A stretch of DNA of 64,000 nucleotides from Synechococcus sp. M16.1 (lineage in GTDB: Bacteria > Cyanobacteriota > Cyanobacteriia > PCC-6307 > Cyanobiaceae): positions 1,178,001 to 1,242,000 of the forward strand of contig NZ_CP047954.1 in NCBI RefSeq assembly GCF_014279895.1, given 5' to 3'. The first letter of the stretch is position 1; each line of letters starts with the position of its first letter. This document shows positions 10,347 to 59,841 of the stretch, one piece after another. A program made the position numbers and the translations under genes. The notes below the pieces were generated by a model. That model had not been told where the DNA came from. It saw only the letters and a list, made by a program, of their open reading frames with translations, and did not search any database.

Positions 10347-10418
10347 GACAGGTCGCTGGGGCCAACTGCAAGGCTGTCCATCAGCAATCCCAGCGCACGC
10401 GTCGGATTGGCATGTTGG

Positions 10419-10512
10419 TCTTGTGAGGAAAAACGCCTCACAGGGTGGAAACAAGGACACACTCCTGCGAGCCGTTTTGGAACCCCTGCCTTTGGCGGGG
10501 GTTTCTTTTTGC
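10419..10512 (+). ncRNA. yfr2: Yfr2-family small RNA
   Basis: The sequence has the hairpin GTGAGG-loop-CCTCAC, then the conserved single-stranded block GTGGAAACAAGGACACAC, then a strong intrinsic terminator (ACCCCTGCC-TTTG-GGCGGGGGT followed by T-rich sequence). A GGAAACA core in this setting is the hallmark of the cyanobacterial Yfr2 sRNA family. A second copy with matching layout lies at 46141-46232 on the minus strand. The terminator ends 15 nt before the next gene, so it could also attenuate that gene. Confidence 0.72.
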
Positions 10513-11820: not shown

Positions 11821-11989
11821 GCGCTGTCTTCATCCAGAACCATGCTGACAGCGCCGTCCCAAAAGAAGCAGAAAAACAGTAGCCGTTGATACAGATTAGG
11901 GCTAGGGTGTGGTCACGTTGGGCCTCATCAACAGGCCGCAGTCAGATCCACGCCAGGCAACGGGGGCGTGGGCACCGCGCAAGAGAGAG

Positions 11990-50695: not shown

Positions 50696-51175
50696 TCAGT
50701 AGCGAGCACCGTCAGGCAACTGACGAAACTCGGCCCACACCGCCTGGGCTTCGCTCTGAAGGATCTGCTGCATTCGAATTTCCTTTTCCAGCACCGGTCT
50801 GCGGATGTCGTCATTGATCGCCCGATCCGAGAAGAGATCCTCGTAATCGCTCCAAGATGCTGCATAGAAGACCTGGCGAATGTTGGCCCAGTAGGCGGTG
50901 GAATAACACATCGGACAACATTCACAGCTCGAATACATCACGCAACCACTGAGATCCCAGTTCTCGAGGGTGCGGCAGGCCTGGCGGATGGCATTGACCT
51001 CAGCATGGGCACTGGGGTCCTTGTCCTGAATCACGCTATTGCCTGCGGCGGCGATCACTTGGCCGTCCTTGACGATCACTGCGCCAAAGGGACCACCGGT
51101 TTTGTACACCACACCGGCATCCCTCATCACCTGGATCGCCTGCCGCATGAAGGCTTCATCTTGATCCGAGGCCAT
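50696..51175 (-). CDS. Nucleobase deaminase (guanine/CMP deaminase family)
   Basis: 159 aa from ATG 51175. The catalytic zinc site is HAEVNAIRQA (His and the proton-shuttle Glu) with SSCECCPMC (the CxxC zinc ligands). The enzyme hydrolyses an amino group on a nucleobase or nucleotide; guanine deaminase is the closest guess from the spacing and tail. TTG 51202 would add nine residues. A full-length metabolic enzyme inside the island. Confidence 0.86.
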   Translation of the reverse strand: MASDQDEAFMRQAIQVMRDAGVVYKTGGPFGAVIVKDGQVIAAAGNSVIQDKDPSAHAEVNAIRQACRTLENWDLSGCVMYSSCECCPMCYSTAYWANIRQVFYAASWSDYEDLFSDRAINDDIRRPVLEKEIRMQQILQSEAQAVWAEFRQLPDGARY

Positions 51176-51320
51176 GGCGTCCCCATTGAACAACTCCTCC
51201 AAAGCTGGCAGCAGGAAAGCCTCGGAACGGAAATGAAACGCTTTGGCGCTTCTTACTCACCCAAGCCAGTGAGGGATGGCTGCTCGCCCATCCCCCCTAC
51301 CGCCAACTCAGGGAGACTGA

Positions 51321-53129: not shown

Positions 53130-53625
53130 ATTGAGGCAGGGGCAGGCGCTCTCCCCCTGAAAAGAAGGCACAGCTCGCTCGTTCGTTCATTCTTGACCCC
53201 GCGATGCGATCGGGGGATGAGAGGCCAGCCCATCTACGACAGGAATGGGGTGACCTCTCCTATTGCTCGCTTCCGACACCCCTGTGATTGCTGAACAGGG
53301 GCCATGCCATATGCCATTGCTGGCGAGAGGCGAAGTGTCGGGCCTTTCAAGCTTCTGGGGCCAAGGTTCCAGGTGATGGACTTTCTGACTCAATGTTGAG
53401 CGCCCCCCGGCAGTGATGGTGCCGAGATTTAGGGCAAGCCCATGGGTGGTGAGAAAACTCGTGGAGCAGATGCTCGAAAGGTCAGGCGACTTCTAAAACC
53501 TGCTCGGTTGGACCGTCGTCTCTCATTGACGCCTCCGATCTCAGTTGACTCACTCTCGTCAGCGGACACGCATAAGGCAATCGGTCTTAACGCTCATTGC
53601 CTTACGAGGCAAAATCGTCGAAATT
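53130..53625. repeat. Degenerate duplicated segment, copy 1
   Basis: Similar to 55870-56425. Shared blocks include the hairpin GAGAGGCCAGCCCA ... CCTCTC near 53219-53259, ACCTCTCCTATT (53251), TGGCGAGAGGCGAAG (53320) and TTAACGCTCATTGCC (53587). Spacing varies. In copy two the outer hairpin stem is a perfect 9 bp. Reading frames in both copies are short and inconsistent, so a structured RNA or decayed gene is likelier than a protein. Confidence 0.6.
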
Positions 53626-53673
53626 GAGAACGATTTGCTGAGCGGAAAGCAGATAGCAGCTCAACCTACCCAC

Positions 53674-53707
53674 AAAAAACCCTCCTGCATCAAAGAAAAC
53701 AGGAGGG
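53674..53707 (-). terminator. Intrinsic terminator, 8-bp stem
   Basis: CCCTCCTG with CAGGAGGG, 12-nt loop, then six T on the minus strand. Ends the transcript of the 53778 microgene. Confidence 0.8.
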
Positions 53708-53777
53708 AAGTCTGATCTCCATCAATCCAATGACCTGAAATGGCATCGGGAATGCTCGGACCTAACAATTCATAGAC

Positions 53778-53921
53778 CTAGTAACCGTGTCCCCTCTTCA
53801 TCGGCTGGTCTCGGTAAGGAGTCATGCCAATTGGGGGCGGAACATGGCTCTTCTCCTCTGCATCAATCGCACCCATGGCATGGGCGAAAGCATCTCCAAA
53901 CCACTTCAGAAAACCCTTCAT
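53778..53921 (-). CDS. Island microprotein, 47 aa
   Basis: ATG 53921 after AGAGAGG. MKGFLKWFGDAFAHAMGAID, then a Pro-rich hydrophilic part (EEKSHVPPPIGMTPYRDQPM) and a basic end. The start resembles a short amphipathic anchor helix. It has the shared motif GGTTAAGTACCTA 57 nt upstream and its own terminator. Function unknown. Confidence 0.68.
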   Translation of the reverse strand: MKGFLKWFGDAFAHAMGAIDAEEKSHVPPPIGMTPYRDQPMKRGHGY

Positions 53922-53977
53922 AGGACCTCTCTGTAGGAACTGACTTAGACCTAGGACGGAAGTGTCTTTTTTGGAAC

Positions 53978-53990
53978 TAGGTACTTAACC
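53978..53990 (-). promoter_or_regulatory. Shared upstream motif GGTTAAGTACCTA, site 3
   Basis: Identical 13-mer, reading into the 53921 start codon on the minus strand (56 nt between). Third of three copies with conserved orientation and spacing. Confidence 0.6.
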
Positions 53991-54109
53991 CAAGTTTGGA
54001 CAATGGGCTTGAGAGGATAAATACTTAGGTACTTTATCTTCATTCATAACAGGCTTGCCGCTTGCAAGCCATCATCGTATTTTCTCTCTTGAATGAACTG
54101 GAGGCGGGT

Positions 54110-54301
54110 ATGTCTCTTGCCCCTTCACTTGTTCGGAGAACAAATCTAGGCGGGACAATTCACATGCTGGTGGGTGATAGCAACCCCCGCTACCTAGCCG
54201 AGTTGAACGGCAGCCGTGTTTACTGCGACGACATGGCCACCGCCGAGGCCCATCTTGACTACTGGAGCAAGGAGTTATTGCACTGCTGGGGAAGGCGGTA
54301 A
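54110..54301 (+). CDS. Island protein, 63 aa
   Basis: ATG 54110 after GGAGGCGGG. MSLAPSLVRRTNLGGTIHML, then VYCDDMATAEAHLDYWSKEL and a basic end LLHCWGRR. Two Cys, Trp-rich. Upstream a TTAGGTACTTTATC element (54023) is similar to, but not the same as, the 13-mer motif. Function unknown. Confidence 0.6.
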   Translation: MSLAPSLVRRTNLGGTIHMLVGDSNPRYLAELNGSRVYCDDMATAEAHLDYWSKELLHCWGRR

Positions 54302-54423
54302 CAAAAAATCTGGAAGCGGCTTCACTTCCAGATCAGTCTGCACGGCAGAGAGCTGCTTCCGGGTCAACTCTCTGCCCTGTCACTCAACGGCTGCGAGGCC
54401 GTCAACAGCTACCCCCAGATGGG
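54302..54423 (-). ncRNA. Repeated RNA element S4 (minus strand)
   Basis: On the minus strand: CCCATCTGGGGGTAG, 20 nt, GTTGA, a GCAGAGAG/CTCTCTGC hairpin, then a terminator with 8-bp arms TCTGGAAG and CTTCCAGA (54309-54332) and six T. Same order as S1-S3, with a single terminator. No coding frame. Confidence 0.5.
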
Positions 54424-54481
54424 AACAACATCCGACTTAGGACGTCGAGCCCTCACCTGTCATCTTGGTGTTGACACAACT

Positions 54482-54503
54482 AACGCTCAACATGTTGAGC
54501 GTT
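54482..54503. promoter_or_regulatory. Perfect 22-bp palindrome
   Basis: Half AACGCTCAACA followed by its reverse complement, without spacer. It lies between elements S4 and S5. A partial half (TGTTGAGCG) also occurs near 53394. A dimer-binding operator or resolution/att-type site are options. Confidence 0.7.
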
Positions 54504-54513
54504 CGATCCAGAG

Positions 54514-54686
54514 AAAAACCCCGGAGTGACGGCTCCAGGGTTTACTTCGGATACGAGGGAAAAGCACTGGTCGTCTCAGGTCCAGGGCTTTTGCTCGAGG
54601 ACCAGTGGAGCTTCTAACGACACCACCGGCTTATTCAGTCAACTCCTGTTTGCTATGCACCAATACCCCCGCATGGGGGTATCAGG
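54514..54686 (-). ncRNA. Repeated RNA element S5 (minus strand)
   Basis: Starts with the palindrome TACCCCC-ATGC-GGGGGTA, 17 nt, GAGTTGACT, then CGAGCAAAAGCCCTGG, a terminator with AAAAGC/GCTTTT arms (54560-54592). A second terminator (54519-54540) has arms CCCTGGAG and CTCCGGGG and loop CCGTCA. The second stem shares its first 18 nt with S1's second terminator, and the AAAAGCCCTG block is also in S2. Confidence 0.58.
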
Positions 54687-54767
54687 CTTCTCATTTGGAT
54701 GAGAGATTCGTTTCACGCGGAAGGGCCGAAAGACCAAGACGCGAGATCTGCATCGGAGGTCTCAACA

Positions 54768-54941
54768 ATGAGCAGAAGAGGAATGCATCCCCTGTTGATG
54801 GGGTTGGACAAGCCAGATCGCAAGGCCGAGGACAAACCTCTGGAAAGGCCGAGCACTCAGATGACTGGTCTTGAGTCACCTCAACACAAACGCTTCCTTC
54901 GTGCCGAGGCAGCAGACAAAACACAGGCCAAAACTGGATGA
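54768..54941 (+). CDS. Island microprotein, MSRRG family, 57 aa
   Basis: ATG 54768 after GGAGG (spacing 8). MSRRGMHPLLMGLDKPDRKA, then a hydrophilic part ending QHKRFLRAEAADKTQAKTG. Paralogue of the minus-strand gene at 41624. Heads a run of four plus-strand small genes. Function unknown. Confidence 0.74.
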   Translation: MSRRGMHPLLMGLDKPDRKAEDKPLERPSTQMTGLESPQHKRFLRAEAADKTQAKTG

Positions 54942-54946
54942 ATGAG

Positions 54947-55099
54947 ATGAGTCCGACCAAGCTCACCAACGCGCCCGAAGGTTTTGAGTACTACAGGGTC
55001 TGCGACCAGGAAGGGGTCTGTCATGTGGTCAGGGGAATGCAGGAAGTTCGGCGACTTCTTGAGAAGACACCTGGTCTGAATGTCACCAAGATCCCCTGA
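54947..55099 (+). CDS. Island microprotein, 50 aa
   Basis: ATG 54947, 5 nt after the previous stop. MSPTKLTNAPEGFEYYRVCD, then a helix (VVRGMQEVRRLLEKTPGLNV). Two Cys near the middle. The tight spacing makes co-translation likely. Function unknown. Confidence 0.6.
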   Translation: MSPTKLTNAPEGFEYYRVCDQEGVCHVVRGMQEVRRLLEKTPGLNVTKIP

Positions 55100-55161
55100 T
55101 TAAAGCCATCACGCTCTGGAGGGCTTGTCACGCAATACCACTCACTTGCTTCGAGGGGGGA

Positions 55162-55323
55162 ATGACCTTTTCCTCAGAACAAATCCAACGTGCCCGTGAG
55201 CTGGCGCGAGAACGAAGAAAACATGGCGCGATTCAACGCCTGCTGATCGATGAATTCAACTTGCGACCCGCCCAGTGCCGTGCGCTCCTGATGACCGCTC
55301 TTGCAGACGAGAAAGCTGCTTGA
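55162..55323 (+). CDS. Island microprotein, 53 aa
   Basis: ATG 55162 after GAGGGGGG. MTFSSEQIQRARELARERRK, then IDEFNLRPAQCRALLMTALA, a basic helical pair. Possible nucleic-acid binding; unproven. Third gene of the run. Confidence 0.6.
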   Translation: MTFSSEQIQRARELARERRKHGAIQRLLIDEFNLRPAQCRALLMTALADEKAA

Positions 55324-55385
55324 TCAATCCTCGATTATCGCAGCCAAGCTGTGTTAGCACCGATAGGAGTGACTCAGGACGAGCC

Positions 55386-55574
55386 TTGTACTGCATCCAA
55401 CAAGAGGACGCTCCTGATCATTGGATTAAGGATTTGTGCTTTAAAACGGAGGTGAGGGCCTATCTGCGGGCACGTGTCATGTCGAGGGTTAAAGCGTGCA
55501 GTTACAGAGTTGTTGACCAGACCACTAACGATGTGAGAGCAATCGTTCGCGACGGTCAAGATTTGATTGGGTGA
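55386..55574 (+). CDS. Island CFKTE-family protein C, 62 aa
   Basis: TTG 55386 after AGGA. The product starts LYCIQQEDAPDHWIKDLCFK, TEVRAYLRARVMS, YRVVDQT. It has the same motif order as the proteins at 42975 and 50271, which fixes the frame despite the rare start. Function unknown. Confidence 0.65.
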   Translation: MYCIQQEDAPDHWIKDLCFKTEVRAYLRARVMSRVKACSYRVVDQTTNDVRAIVRDGQDLIG

Positions 55575-55756
55575 TGGGAGTCCGAGTCAGCTCTTGCCAT
55601 CTCTTGAACTGAGGGCTCACTGGCATTCGATGCACGCAGGATTCGTATGTCTACGTTGCGTGCATCGTCCTCTTTAGGGAGAGGGGATTCGATGGAATAG
55701 ACGAAACTGACAGCTTCATCCTTGCTGCCAAGCGACATGCCGAAGCTGCCTTGCAT
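55556..55756 (-). CDS. Island protein, 66 aa
   Basis: ATG 55756 after GGAG (spacing about 8). MQGSFGMSLGSKDEAVSFVY and an acidic, Ser-rich end. It lies at the edge of duplication copy 2, opposite CFKTE protein C (19-nt overlap). Function unknown; may be a truncated relative of the 52817 gene region. Confidence 0.48.
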   Translation of the reverse strand: MQGSFGMSLGSKDEAVSFVYSIESPLPKEDDARNVDIRILRASNASEPSVQEMARADSDSHHPIKS

Positions 55757-55869
55757 GAGACGTCTCCAAAGCTGACGGCACTTGAGAAAGCGATGTGGCT
55801 GAAGTTGAAAAGAGGTGAACGCCCCTGCAAAAACAACACGTGGTCGTAGGCGAACAGTGATCTGCTCTC

Positions 55870-56425
55870 AAGGTGGAAGGCCGCCCCTCCCAGCTGGAAG
55901 AGACGGCCTAGTTCGCTCGTTTGTGCATGGTTGAACCCGTGATGTGATCGGGTGTTGAGAGGCCAGCCCACCTACGACAGGAATGAGGTGGCCTCTCTTA
56001 TTCCTCGCTTCCGACACCAACTGTCCCTTCCATCCCATCAGGAGCAGAGGTCAAGTCGTAGTGCCATCTCTGGCGAGGGGCGAAGCGTCTGGCGTGGTGG
56101 CACCTGGGGCCATTGGGTCCAGGGGTGTGGCTGATGAAGCTCCGGGGCACCTGAGGCGGTGAAGCTTTGGCCTACGGGACGGTGCAAGTTGGAGTGTCGA
56201 TTAGCGTGGCGTTTCGCTCGCCTCGTCAAAAGACCAGCCTCACGGGTGGGTGGAAACTGTTGGAGCAGGGGCCAGAAAGTCAGTCTGCTTCTGCTCTTTG
56301 CTCAGGTGGAGTGTCGGCCGTCATGGGCTCCTCCGATCTCGATGGACATACTTTCCACCCGTCAGCGGTTAATGGCTATCCGAGTTAACGCTCATTGCCT
56401 TCTGGGGCAAAACCAGCAAATGTGT
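55870..56425. repeat. Degenerate duplicated segment, copy 2
   Basis: Second copy of the 53130-53625 segment. The GAGAGGCCA/TGGCCTCTC hairpin (about 55958-55998) has a perfect 9-bp stem, where copy 1 has one mismatch. The final TTAACGCTCATTGCC block and the TGGCGAGGGGCGAAG block are conserved. No convincing gene inside. Confidence 0.58.
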
Positions 56426-56589
56426 TGATGGCGTGCCTCACCCAGCTGTGGTTTTTTCAGATCCACCCAGCTGAGCCACTGATGATCTGTGGTAGGTGCC
56501 GAGCTGCAGAACGACAGCACATGTCTCCCAGCTCCTCCCTTTGACCCTGTTCCATTTCTCCCCAGGCTTCATAGAAAAAAGCGCAGGAC

Positions 56590-58378: not shown

Positions 58379-59107
58379 CATGTGGAGCAATTTGAGTAGC
58401 GGATTTCGCTGAATCAACTGGCTCCAATGGCTTATCTGTATCTCGTCCTGGTCTCATGCACCTAGCCCGGGACGCGGACCCATGTCAGCGGCAACTGCTG
58501 GGTCCGTTTGTCTAGCGAATCCAGCCGTTCTCCCGAGGCCAATCGAGCTTTTAGGCAGTCCGTATCAGTCGAAACCATCGCCGGGATCTACCGAAATTTT
58601 TGGCGGATCAGCACATCTTCAATAATTTCCAGACAAGCCTGCTGAATGGCCTCATCATTGAGCCCTCAGTTGCCACACACCAGATGTGGTGCTGAGCAGC
58701 ACGGGGAGAGCGACCCTGAGGCTGGTAGAAGGGTTTCCCCGTTGAGAGCGATCAATGGGGAGATCTCTTTATGTCTGAAAGCTGTAGACATTCAGTGCAT
58801 CGGGCACAAATCAGTGTGACGTAGCGAACGTGTTTATGCGGATACCGCATCGCTCGGGGAGGACTCGCTTCTCCTCGCGGTTCCGTGGCTCCACATCGTT
58901 AAGTCGCAGCTTGGTTGAAGGTCAGCCATCGCGGCAGAGGGAGCTGCTCAAAAACCTCGGCCACGCCCCTCCACACCAATCGATTCAATGTGTACTTGAT
59001 GAGCAAATCATGAAAGAAATATAATTACCTATTTGCGATATTTAAAGCTTTGAAATCAAACAAGTAATCAAGTGCTTAAGTCGTCCCGTTATTTCATGGA
59101 GGACAGT
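58379..59107. other. Gene-poor stretch with a remnant
   Basis: No credible gene. It holds a perfect 8-bp hairpin CGGACCCA/TGGGTCCG (58475-58506) followed by GTTTGTC, a weak terminator. On the minus strand about 58590-58672 there is a start-less fragment LNDEAIQQACLEIIEDVLIR with protein-like composition, probably the end of a decayed gene. Confidence 0.4.
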
Positions 59108-59451: not shown

Positions 59452-59841
59452 ATGGTCAGCTTCGACAAATCCACACCGTTCATGTTGCTGGCGCGAATCC
59501 ACGTCAAGCCCGGTTGTGTTGACCAGTACCTGGAGCTGGCTCGCGTCACCGACGAAGCCGTTCAAGCTTCTGAGCCAGGCATGATTCATCACACCTTTGA
59601 TCAGGACCCAGACGATCCCCAGGCGTTCGTTTGGTCAGAGGTCTACGCCAACGACGAGGCGTTCAGCGCCCATGTGTCGAACCCTCCCGTTCAGCAATAT
59701 CTGCAAAAGCATGCGGAACTTGGCGATGGCTTCAGCGTTGAGGTTTACGGAACGGTGGGCGATGACTGCCGGCAGCTGATGGAGTCGTTTGGACTTCCAC
59801 TCAAGATCTTTGAAACCAAGCTCGGATACAGCAGGGTCTGA
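59452..59841 (+). CDS. Antibiotic biosynthesis monooxygenase (ABM) domain protein
   Basis: 129 aa. The ABM fold is seen: MLLARIHVKPGCVDQYLELA, then a strand containing Met/His (GMIHHTFDQD), ending with FVWSEVYANDEAFSAHVSN. ABM proteins act on small phenolic or quinone-like compounds, or degrade heme. No cofactor site is evident. ATG 59452. Confidence 0.85.
   Translation: MVSFDKSTPFMLLARIHVKPGCVDQYLELARVTDEAVQASEPGMIHHTFDQDPDDPQAFVWSEVYANDEAFSAHVSNPPVQQYLQKHAELGDGFSVEVYGTVGDDCRQLMESFGLPLKIFETKLGYSRV

Follow-up and report, generated by a model that had tools for sequence, protein, structure and literature searches.

Two related stretches of Synechococcus sp. M16.1 as members of a dispersed non-coding RNA gene family, most likely Yfr103

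Introduction

In a stretch of 64,000 nucleotides from the genome of Synechococcus sp. M16.1 (contig NZ_CP047954.1, forward-strand positions 1,178,001 to 1,242,000; hereafter the window, whose numbering we use unless genome positions are named), two regions resemble each other in scattered blocks and share a hairpin. A preliminary description, made from the letters of the sequence, took them for a long degenerate duplication of which only part had been copied, and suggested that the retained feature may be RNA. The locus thereby raises the question of what kind of element this is, and whether the likeness of its copies goes back to a local event. We find that the two stretches, here called copy 1 and copy 2, are two members of a widespread and repeated family of large non-coding RNA (ncRNA) genes in marine cyanobacteria and not the product of a local duplication. 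We put the probability that both are plus-strand genes of one large, structured, multi-copy ncRNA family, most likely Yfr103, at about 0.8. As a known multi-copy ncRNA family this is ordinary in kind, and its interest lies in an RNA that is abundant, unexplained, unmatched in Rfam, widespread and here present in a long form.

Yfr103 is the name given to seven paralogous ncRNAs of 290-328 nt that, in Synechococcus CC9605, are reported to make up 55.2% of the mdRNA-Seq reads together (PMC5069720). In marine picocyanobacteria few RNAs are reported to be as abundant, and homologs are listed for marine Synechococcus strains and for some Prochlorococcus. The same paper describes an imperfect palindrome between positions -58 and -29 relative to the start and a strongly conserved secondary structure, and calls the function enigmatic (PMC5069720).

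Results and Discussion

The two regions belong to a dispersed family

The scattered-block match was confirmed, since alignments and blastn both placed the relatedness of 53141-53614 and 55879-56412 far above chance. Two ungapped repeats were found (53141-53280 with 55879-56018, 140 nt at 81% identity, and 53576-53614 with 56374-56412, 39 nt at 82%), and the gapped pairwise alignment ran over the whole length of both window regions, so the similarity is not of the short, accidental kind. When copy 2 was used as blastn query against its own genome, copy 1 was recovered in two blocks (E values of 7e-33 and 4e-12). The GAGAGGCCAGCCC hairpin is common to both copies (53219-53259 and 55957-55997), with folding energies of -20.9 and -21.1 kcal/mol, respectively, that none of 200 shuffles matched in either case. 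Alignment and folds further agree that in copy 2 all 9 bp of its outer stem are paired and that copy 1 carries a single C-A mismatch there, as first described.

The idea of a two-copy duplication did not survive a search for further copies in the own genome and in relatives. M16.1 contains seven full copies, of which two lie in the window and five at genome positions near 483558, 815113, 883752, 1246616 and 1740373. A mini-copy at 991641-991716 has a different palindrome and retains both arms of P1, the stem that closes the core of the RNA, while the interior domains of the core are deleted; it can be regarded as a natural deletion mutant of the RNA. There are also promoter-only relics with no RNA body near 664945 (half a palindrome) and 667926 (palindrome plus CTCGCTTGTT). 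Two extra matches to the covariance model, at 290486 (E 4e-4) and 1760184 (E 0.008), were weak and were taken as chance. Nor is there support for the claim that only part was copied: the nearest relative of copy 1 in its own genome is 1740373-1740851 and not copy 2, many genomes carry several members of the family, and what the copies share is an entire element that begins with the promoter-like block and includes the conserved tail.

Among 59 genomes (designated here by G numbers), 33 including M16.1, or 32 of the 58 relatives, matched the element query at E<=0.001, some of them partially; all belong to the same genus, with one exception from the same taxonomic family. Within the taxonomic family, a covariance model of the 3' block gave matches in 287 of 400 genomes and in 55 of 59 genera; these 400 genomes sample a larger group evenly, and stricter filters applied to their scoring. 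Altogether 90 places were reduced to 62 distinct copies, and another 56 places with a 3' block but no recognised promoter block were not considered further; removal of near-identical cores left 33 of the 62 for the covariance model and the core alignment.

Layout of the RNA gene

From 5' to 3', family members consist of an imperfect palindrome of 30-32 bp and a conserved CTCGCTCGTT(T)GTGCAT block, then a 5' part that varies and a core that is conserved, and finally the 3' hairpin region around ATTGCC with a tail that ends in GGCGTGCC. The extent first given for the repeat was roughly right, but the conserved unit is slightly larger and runs in copy 2 from the palindrome (55878-55909) through the tail to about 56437. 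Similarly, TTAACGCTCATTGCC does occur in both copies (at 53587 and 56385) but is not the end of the unit, as the tail of copy 2 continues beyond it. The features of the two copies are as follows.

Copy 1
53140-53171, plus strand: degenerate counterpart of the promoter palindrome, GGCAGGGGCAGGCG...AAGAAGGCAC, by alignment to copy 2
53172-53191, plus strand: conserved CTCGCTCGTT..CAT block, likely promoter, conserved in the family alignments
53219-53259, plus strand: extra hairpin of the long form, by alignment and fold
53329-53546, plus strand: core RNA, with P1 arms GAAGT (53332) and ACTTC (ends 53493)
53459-53546, plus strand: 3' block, match to model R1
53576-53601, plus strand: 3' hairpin GGCAAT..ATTGCC with TTAACGCTCATTGCC, read from the sequence

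Copy 2
55878-55909, plus strand: intact imperfect palindrome upstream of the promoter, likely regulator site, fitting the palindrome of PMC5069720
55910-55928, plus strand: conserved TTCGCTCGTTTGTGCAT block, likely promoter
55957-55997, plus strand: extra long-form hairpin, with no mismatch in the outer 9-bp stem
56080-56344, plus strand: core RNA, with P1 arms GAAGC (56082) and GCTTC (ends 56291)
56258-56344, plus strand: 3' block, match to model R1
56374-56399, plus strand: 3' hairpin region with TTAACGCTCATTGCC, GGCTAT/ATTGCC with one mismatch, read from the sequence
56400-56437, plus strand: conserved tail ending GGCGTGCC, by a tail consensus of 59 copies

If the spacing given in PMC5069720 applies, the RNA would start near 53200 in copy 1 and near 55938 in copy 2. 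Copy 2 looks intact, with palindrome and promoter-like block as in most copies. Copy 1 has three mismatches to the pattern of palindrome end and CTCGCTCGTT, and DNA folding of its palindrome region gave no palindrome stem. With the P1-paired RNA body kept and the palindrome lost, copy 1 is probably expressed weakly or differently. At the 3' hairpin, the DNA fold of copy 1 instead forms the TTGCC..GGCAA hairpin that follows, and a competing fold was likewise obtained in this region of copy 2.

Evidence for a structured RNA

The long-range stem P1 is GAAGC/GCTTC in most copies and GAAGT/ACTTC in others, copy 2 being of the first and copy 1 of the second kind. Across the 33 rows of the core alignment the P1 pair 8-227 is CG in 23, UA in 8 and CA in 2. 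We compared the pairing of stem arms with their own partners and with swapped ones in 2000 permutations, using 57 non-redundant cores out of 86 (53 for the stem P4). On average, own P1 arms paired better than in all permutations (mean -17.54 versus -16.21 kcal/mol, n=57), and a single permutation did as well as own P6 arms (-12.30 versus -11.32 kcal/mol, n=57); as the permutation ignores relatedness, these figures are indications and not probabilities. The consensus fold of the 33-row core gave a partial structure of 23 pairs, five of which show changes on both sides. The hairpin, in an alignment made without locus L031, has such changes in 3 of 13 pairs; its covariation score was reached by 8 of 500 shuffles and its number of cells changed on both sides by 28 of 500. 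A CCTCC motif occurs unchanged in all 33 core rows, and from its sequence an anti-Shine-Dalgarno role might be imagined, a weak idea because the motif lies partly inside an invariant predicted stem.

These observations support the early suggestion that RNA is what has been retained, which is further favored by the agreement with a published ncRNA family. Could the repeats instead be duplicated small protein genes on either strand? Two minus-strand open reading frames do share an N-terminal stretch across the hairpin, and in five of the six frames the average open stretch somewhat exceeds that of mononucleotide shuffles. However, neither of the minus-strand frames that cross the repeat contains a Pfam family, copy lengths vary by non-multiples of three, and stem pairing is preserved despite base changes, so that we consider a protein-coding origin very improbable.

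Probable identity with Yfr103

Copy number, size classes, palindrome and species distribution together indicate that the family is very probably Yfr103. One of the compared genomes, G030, we take to be that of CC9605. It carries seven promoter-block copies, as many as the paralogs of that strain, and the own genome likewise has seven full copies. The length spread in G030 agrees with the published Yfr103 spread but is offset by about 30 nt, and the window copies are longer. The palindrome of copy 2 (55878-55909) fits the published one in length when placed relative to the inferred start; copy 1 has no such palindrome. By the 3'-block model G065 has a copy and G148 and G169 none; we presume these to be SS120 and the high-light strains MIT9301 and MIT9312, respectively. 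Like Yfr103 as published, the present family has several paralogs per genome, a similar size spread, an upstream imperfect palindrome, a similar distribution and probably a structured RNA. It differs in that the window copies are long forms with an extra 5' hairpin domain, which exceed short copies by 80-140 nt when measured alike, and in that copy 1 lacks the palindrome. The family itself is already known; a long form was not found in the main published description of Yfr103 as far as consulted. The copies had no match in Rfam, either in a gathering-score scan of the window or in an E-value scan of eight loci.

Several results weigh against a structured Yfr103 RNA and have to be set beside this evidence. 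The arm-swap effect is absent in P4, where 664 of the 2000 permutations were as good, and in P1 and P6 it is an effect on the average, as 35% and 29% of swaps, respectively, do as well at the median sequence. A column-pair covariation analysis of the core showed no enrichment of complementary pairs (0.17 in the top 100 versus 0.15 overall), a null result that we attribute to confounding because alternative modules are inherited in linked blocks. Folding energy of the whole RNA is unremarkable in copy 2 (z -0.21) and slight in copy 1 (z -1.98), and the remaining three covariation measures of the hairpin were reached by 54, 220 and 321 of 500 shuffles. Consensus scans of the plus strand found no sigma-70 promoter and no intrinsic terminator at either copy. 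In G030 there is an eighth, divergent match to the 3' block (42 bits), and its copies measure 322-358 nt from inferred start to the end of the 3' hairpin (five of seven measurable), about 30 nt more than the published 290-328 nt. Membership in Yfr103, finally, is assigned by features and not by sequence alignment to deposited Yfr103.

The excess length of about 30 nt, the assignment by features and the absence of the long-form hairpin pattern from G030 would suit a distinct large RNA family that resembles Yfr103 without being it. The seven promoter-bearing copies in G030, the palindrome anatomy and the species distribution nevertheless match the Yfr103 description, and we regard a separate family as improbable.

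Relationships of the two copies

Among all loci compared, a G020 copy is the nearest relative of the copy 1 RNA part (95% over 391 nt). Next comes the own-genome copy at 1740373-1740851, 0.5 Mb away (93% over 402 nt of the RNA part; 91% over 445 nt in a second alignment), and then a copy in G003 (92%). The G020 and G003 copies share the downstream sequence with copy 1; their upstream side is different and has no palindrome. Copy 2 has its best matches in another genus, in G274 (86% over 457 nt, region 55938-56399) and G351 (85%), and its next best within the own genus is 72% over the full length; upstream, the sequence that flanks copy 2 is similar to the flanks of G001 and G022 copies. An exchange between genera is one possible source of this cross-genus match. 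Because the nearest relatives differ (G020 and 1740373 versus G274 and G351), each window copy is placed in its own subgroup, and by these sequence comparisons copy 1 is not a decayed form of copy 2.

In the G020, G003 and G015 copies the RNA body is kept and the palindrome-promoter side is replaced. These copies begin near the inferred RNA start, and retro-duplication was considered for them; it was dropped since the upstream region is common to all three, so that replacement of the promoter side explains where they begin. Within the RNA-family reading, the same comparison bears on whether copy 1 is a decaying pseudogene beside a functional copy 2. Its degenerate palindrome would suit such a fate, as would the lack of a palindrome in the G020 and G003 copies that are alike downstream. 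On the other hand, these palindrome-less RNA bodies are still 95-97% identical to the palindrome-bearing 1740373 copy, and the P1 arms of copy 1 still pair. We therefore see decay of copy 1 as a real possibility, although the less probable of the two fates.

Dispersal of this kind also brings to mind a non-autonomous mobile element or repeat, similar to a miniature inverted-repeat transposable element, whose copies persist without a cellular RNA function. The copies are numerous and scattered, near-identical RNA bodies sit in different flanks, promoter-only relics occur, and G129 (2267987-2268972) has three matches to the 3' block spaced 450 bp apart, in what looks like a tandem array of RNA genes; the better match of copy 2 to another genus than to its own would fit horizontal movement. 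Against this stand the preference of stem arms for their own partner, the presence of the 3' block in 55 of 59 genera and similar chromosome positions in several genomes (by position only, 483558 in the own genome corresponds to 487422, 519838 and 520459 in G001, G003 and G030). Searches of phage and plasmid collections with the element gave no match at E<=0.001. An exact 17-mer occurred in 71 stretches of genome contigs and 4 of viral contigs, but only 21 of the 71, and no viral stretch, were also matched by the element query; the 21 are all titled Synechococcus save one metagenome-assembled genome titled proteobacterium. Taken together, we judge a mobile repeat to be an unlikely explanation and retain that of an RNA gene family.

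The long form and its loop complementarity

Measured from palindrome end to core end, the 62 distinct copies fall into short (297-304), middle (336-348) and long (368-443) forms. The hairpin seen in the window marks the long form and is absent from the shorter ones. A 22-nt pattern of this hairpin, with up to three mismatches, was found in 21 of the 400 genomes, comprising 14 of 34 in this genus, 4 of genus g57 and 3 single others; a reversed control pattern gave one match, so that a few of the three-mismatch matches may be chance, and the pattern misses some long forms (e.g. L031 in G016), which means that 21 is no exact count.

In copy 2 the hairpin loop, CTACGAC, is complementary to a downstream GTCGTAG. 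Full complementarity in seven of seven positions is present in 5 of 15 long forms including copy 2, and in neither copy 1 nor the other nine; two copies have the loop/downstream variant CGACGAC/GUCGUUG. We may speculate that these RNAs form a class missing from Rfam and spread over the taxonomic family, built of exchangeable 5' and 3' modules that paralogs of one genome combine differently and whose stems still pair, and that the extra domain of the copy-2 type docks onto the body through a CUACGAC/GUCGUAG pseudoknot. This proposal as a whole is rather unlikely to be right, and the limited occurrence of full complementarity among long forms slightly lowers its odds. If true, a cell would contain one of its most abundant RNAs in more than one structural version.

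A possible mode of action

A model consistent with the data would be that transcription starts about 29 nt after the palindrome, which may serve as a regulator site. Up to the 3' hairpin, the transcript would then measure about 400 nt in copy 1 and 460 nt in copy 2. The long-range P1 stem, of the GAAGC/GCUUC type, closes the core, and only the long form has the extra 5' domain with the hairpin first noticed. Such an RNA could be abundant and act in trans, either as a regulator that pairs with other RNAs or by binding protein, and the several genomic copies would raise its dosage. This model fits the number of copies per genome, the palindrome with its likeness to a regulator site, and a response to light and temperature that is reported for Prochlorococcus MIT9313. 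The question of function becomes easier to test with the chart of the 3' block over 400 genomes, the minority long form and the two helices with own-partner preference, P1 and P6, and the natural deletion and natural promoter losses provide ready-made mutants.

Neighboring genes and other RNA families

The surrounding stretch of small genes, of which the tested ones have no confident Pfam family, is flanked by a gene for a cytidine/deoxycytidylate deaminase family protein (50696-51202, minus strand) and one for an antibiotic biosynthesis monooxygenase (ABM) domain protein (59452-59841, plus strand). Cyano-2 RNA (RF01702) is likewise structured, occurs in the same organisms and has more than one copy, with three in the own genome; unlike the present RNA it is a family of 204 positions, and its matches lie elsewhere than at the window copies. 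The only Cyano-2 match in the window at gathering score is at 58695-58893 (176.8 bits). Yfr1 and Yfr2 are under 100 nt, and Yfr2 is presumably the same as Cyano-1 (RF01701). Both resemble the present family as conserved cyanobacterial small RNAs, some of them multi-copy, and in the Rfam scan neither Yfr1 nor Yfr2 (Cyano-1) matched the window copies. Elsewhere in the window, a Cyano-1 RNA (10417-10481) and a glutamine-II riboswitch (11913-11972) lie about 1.4 kb apart.

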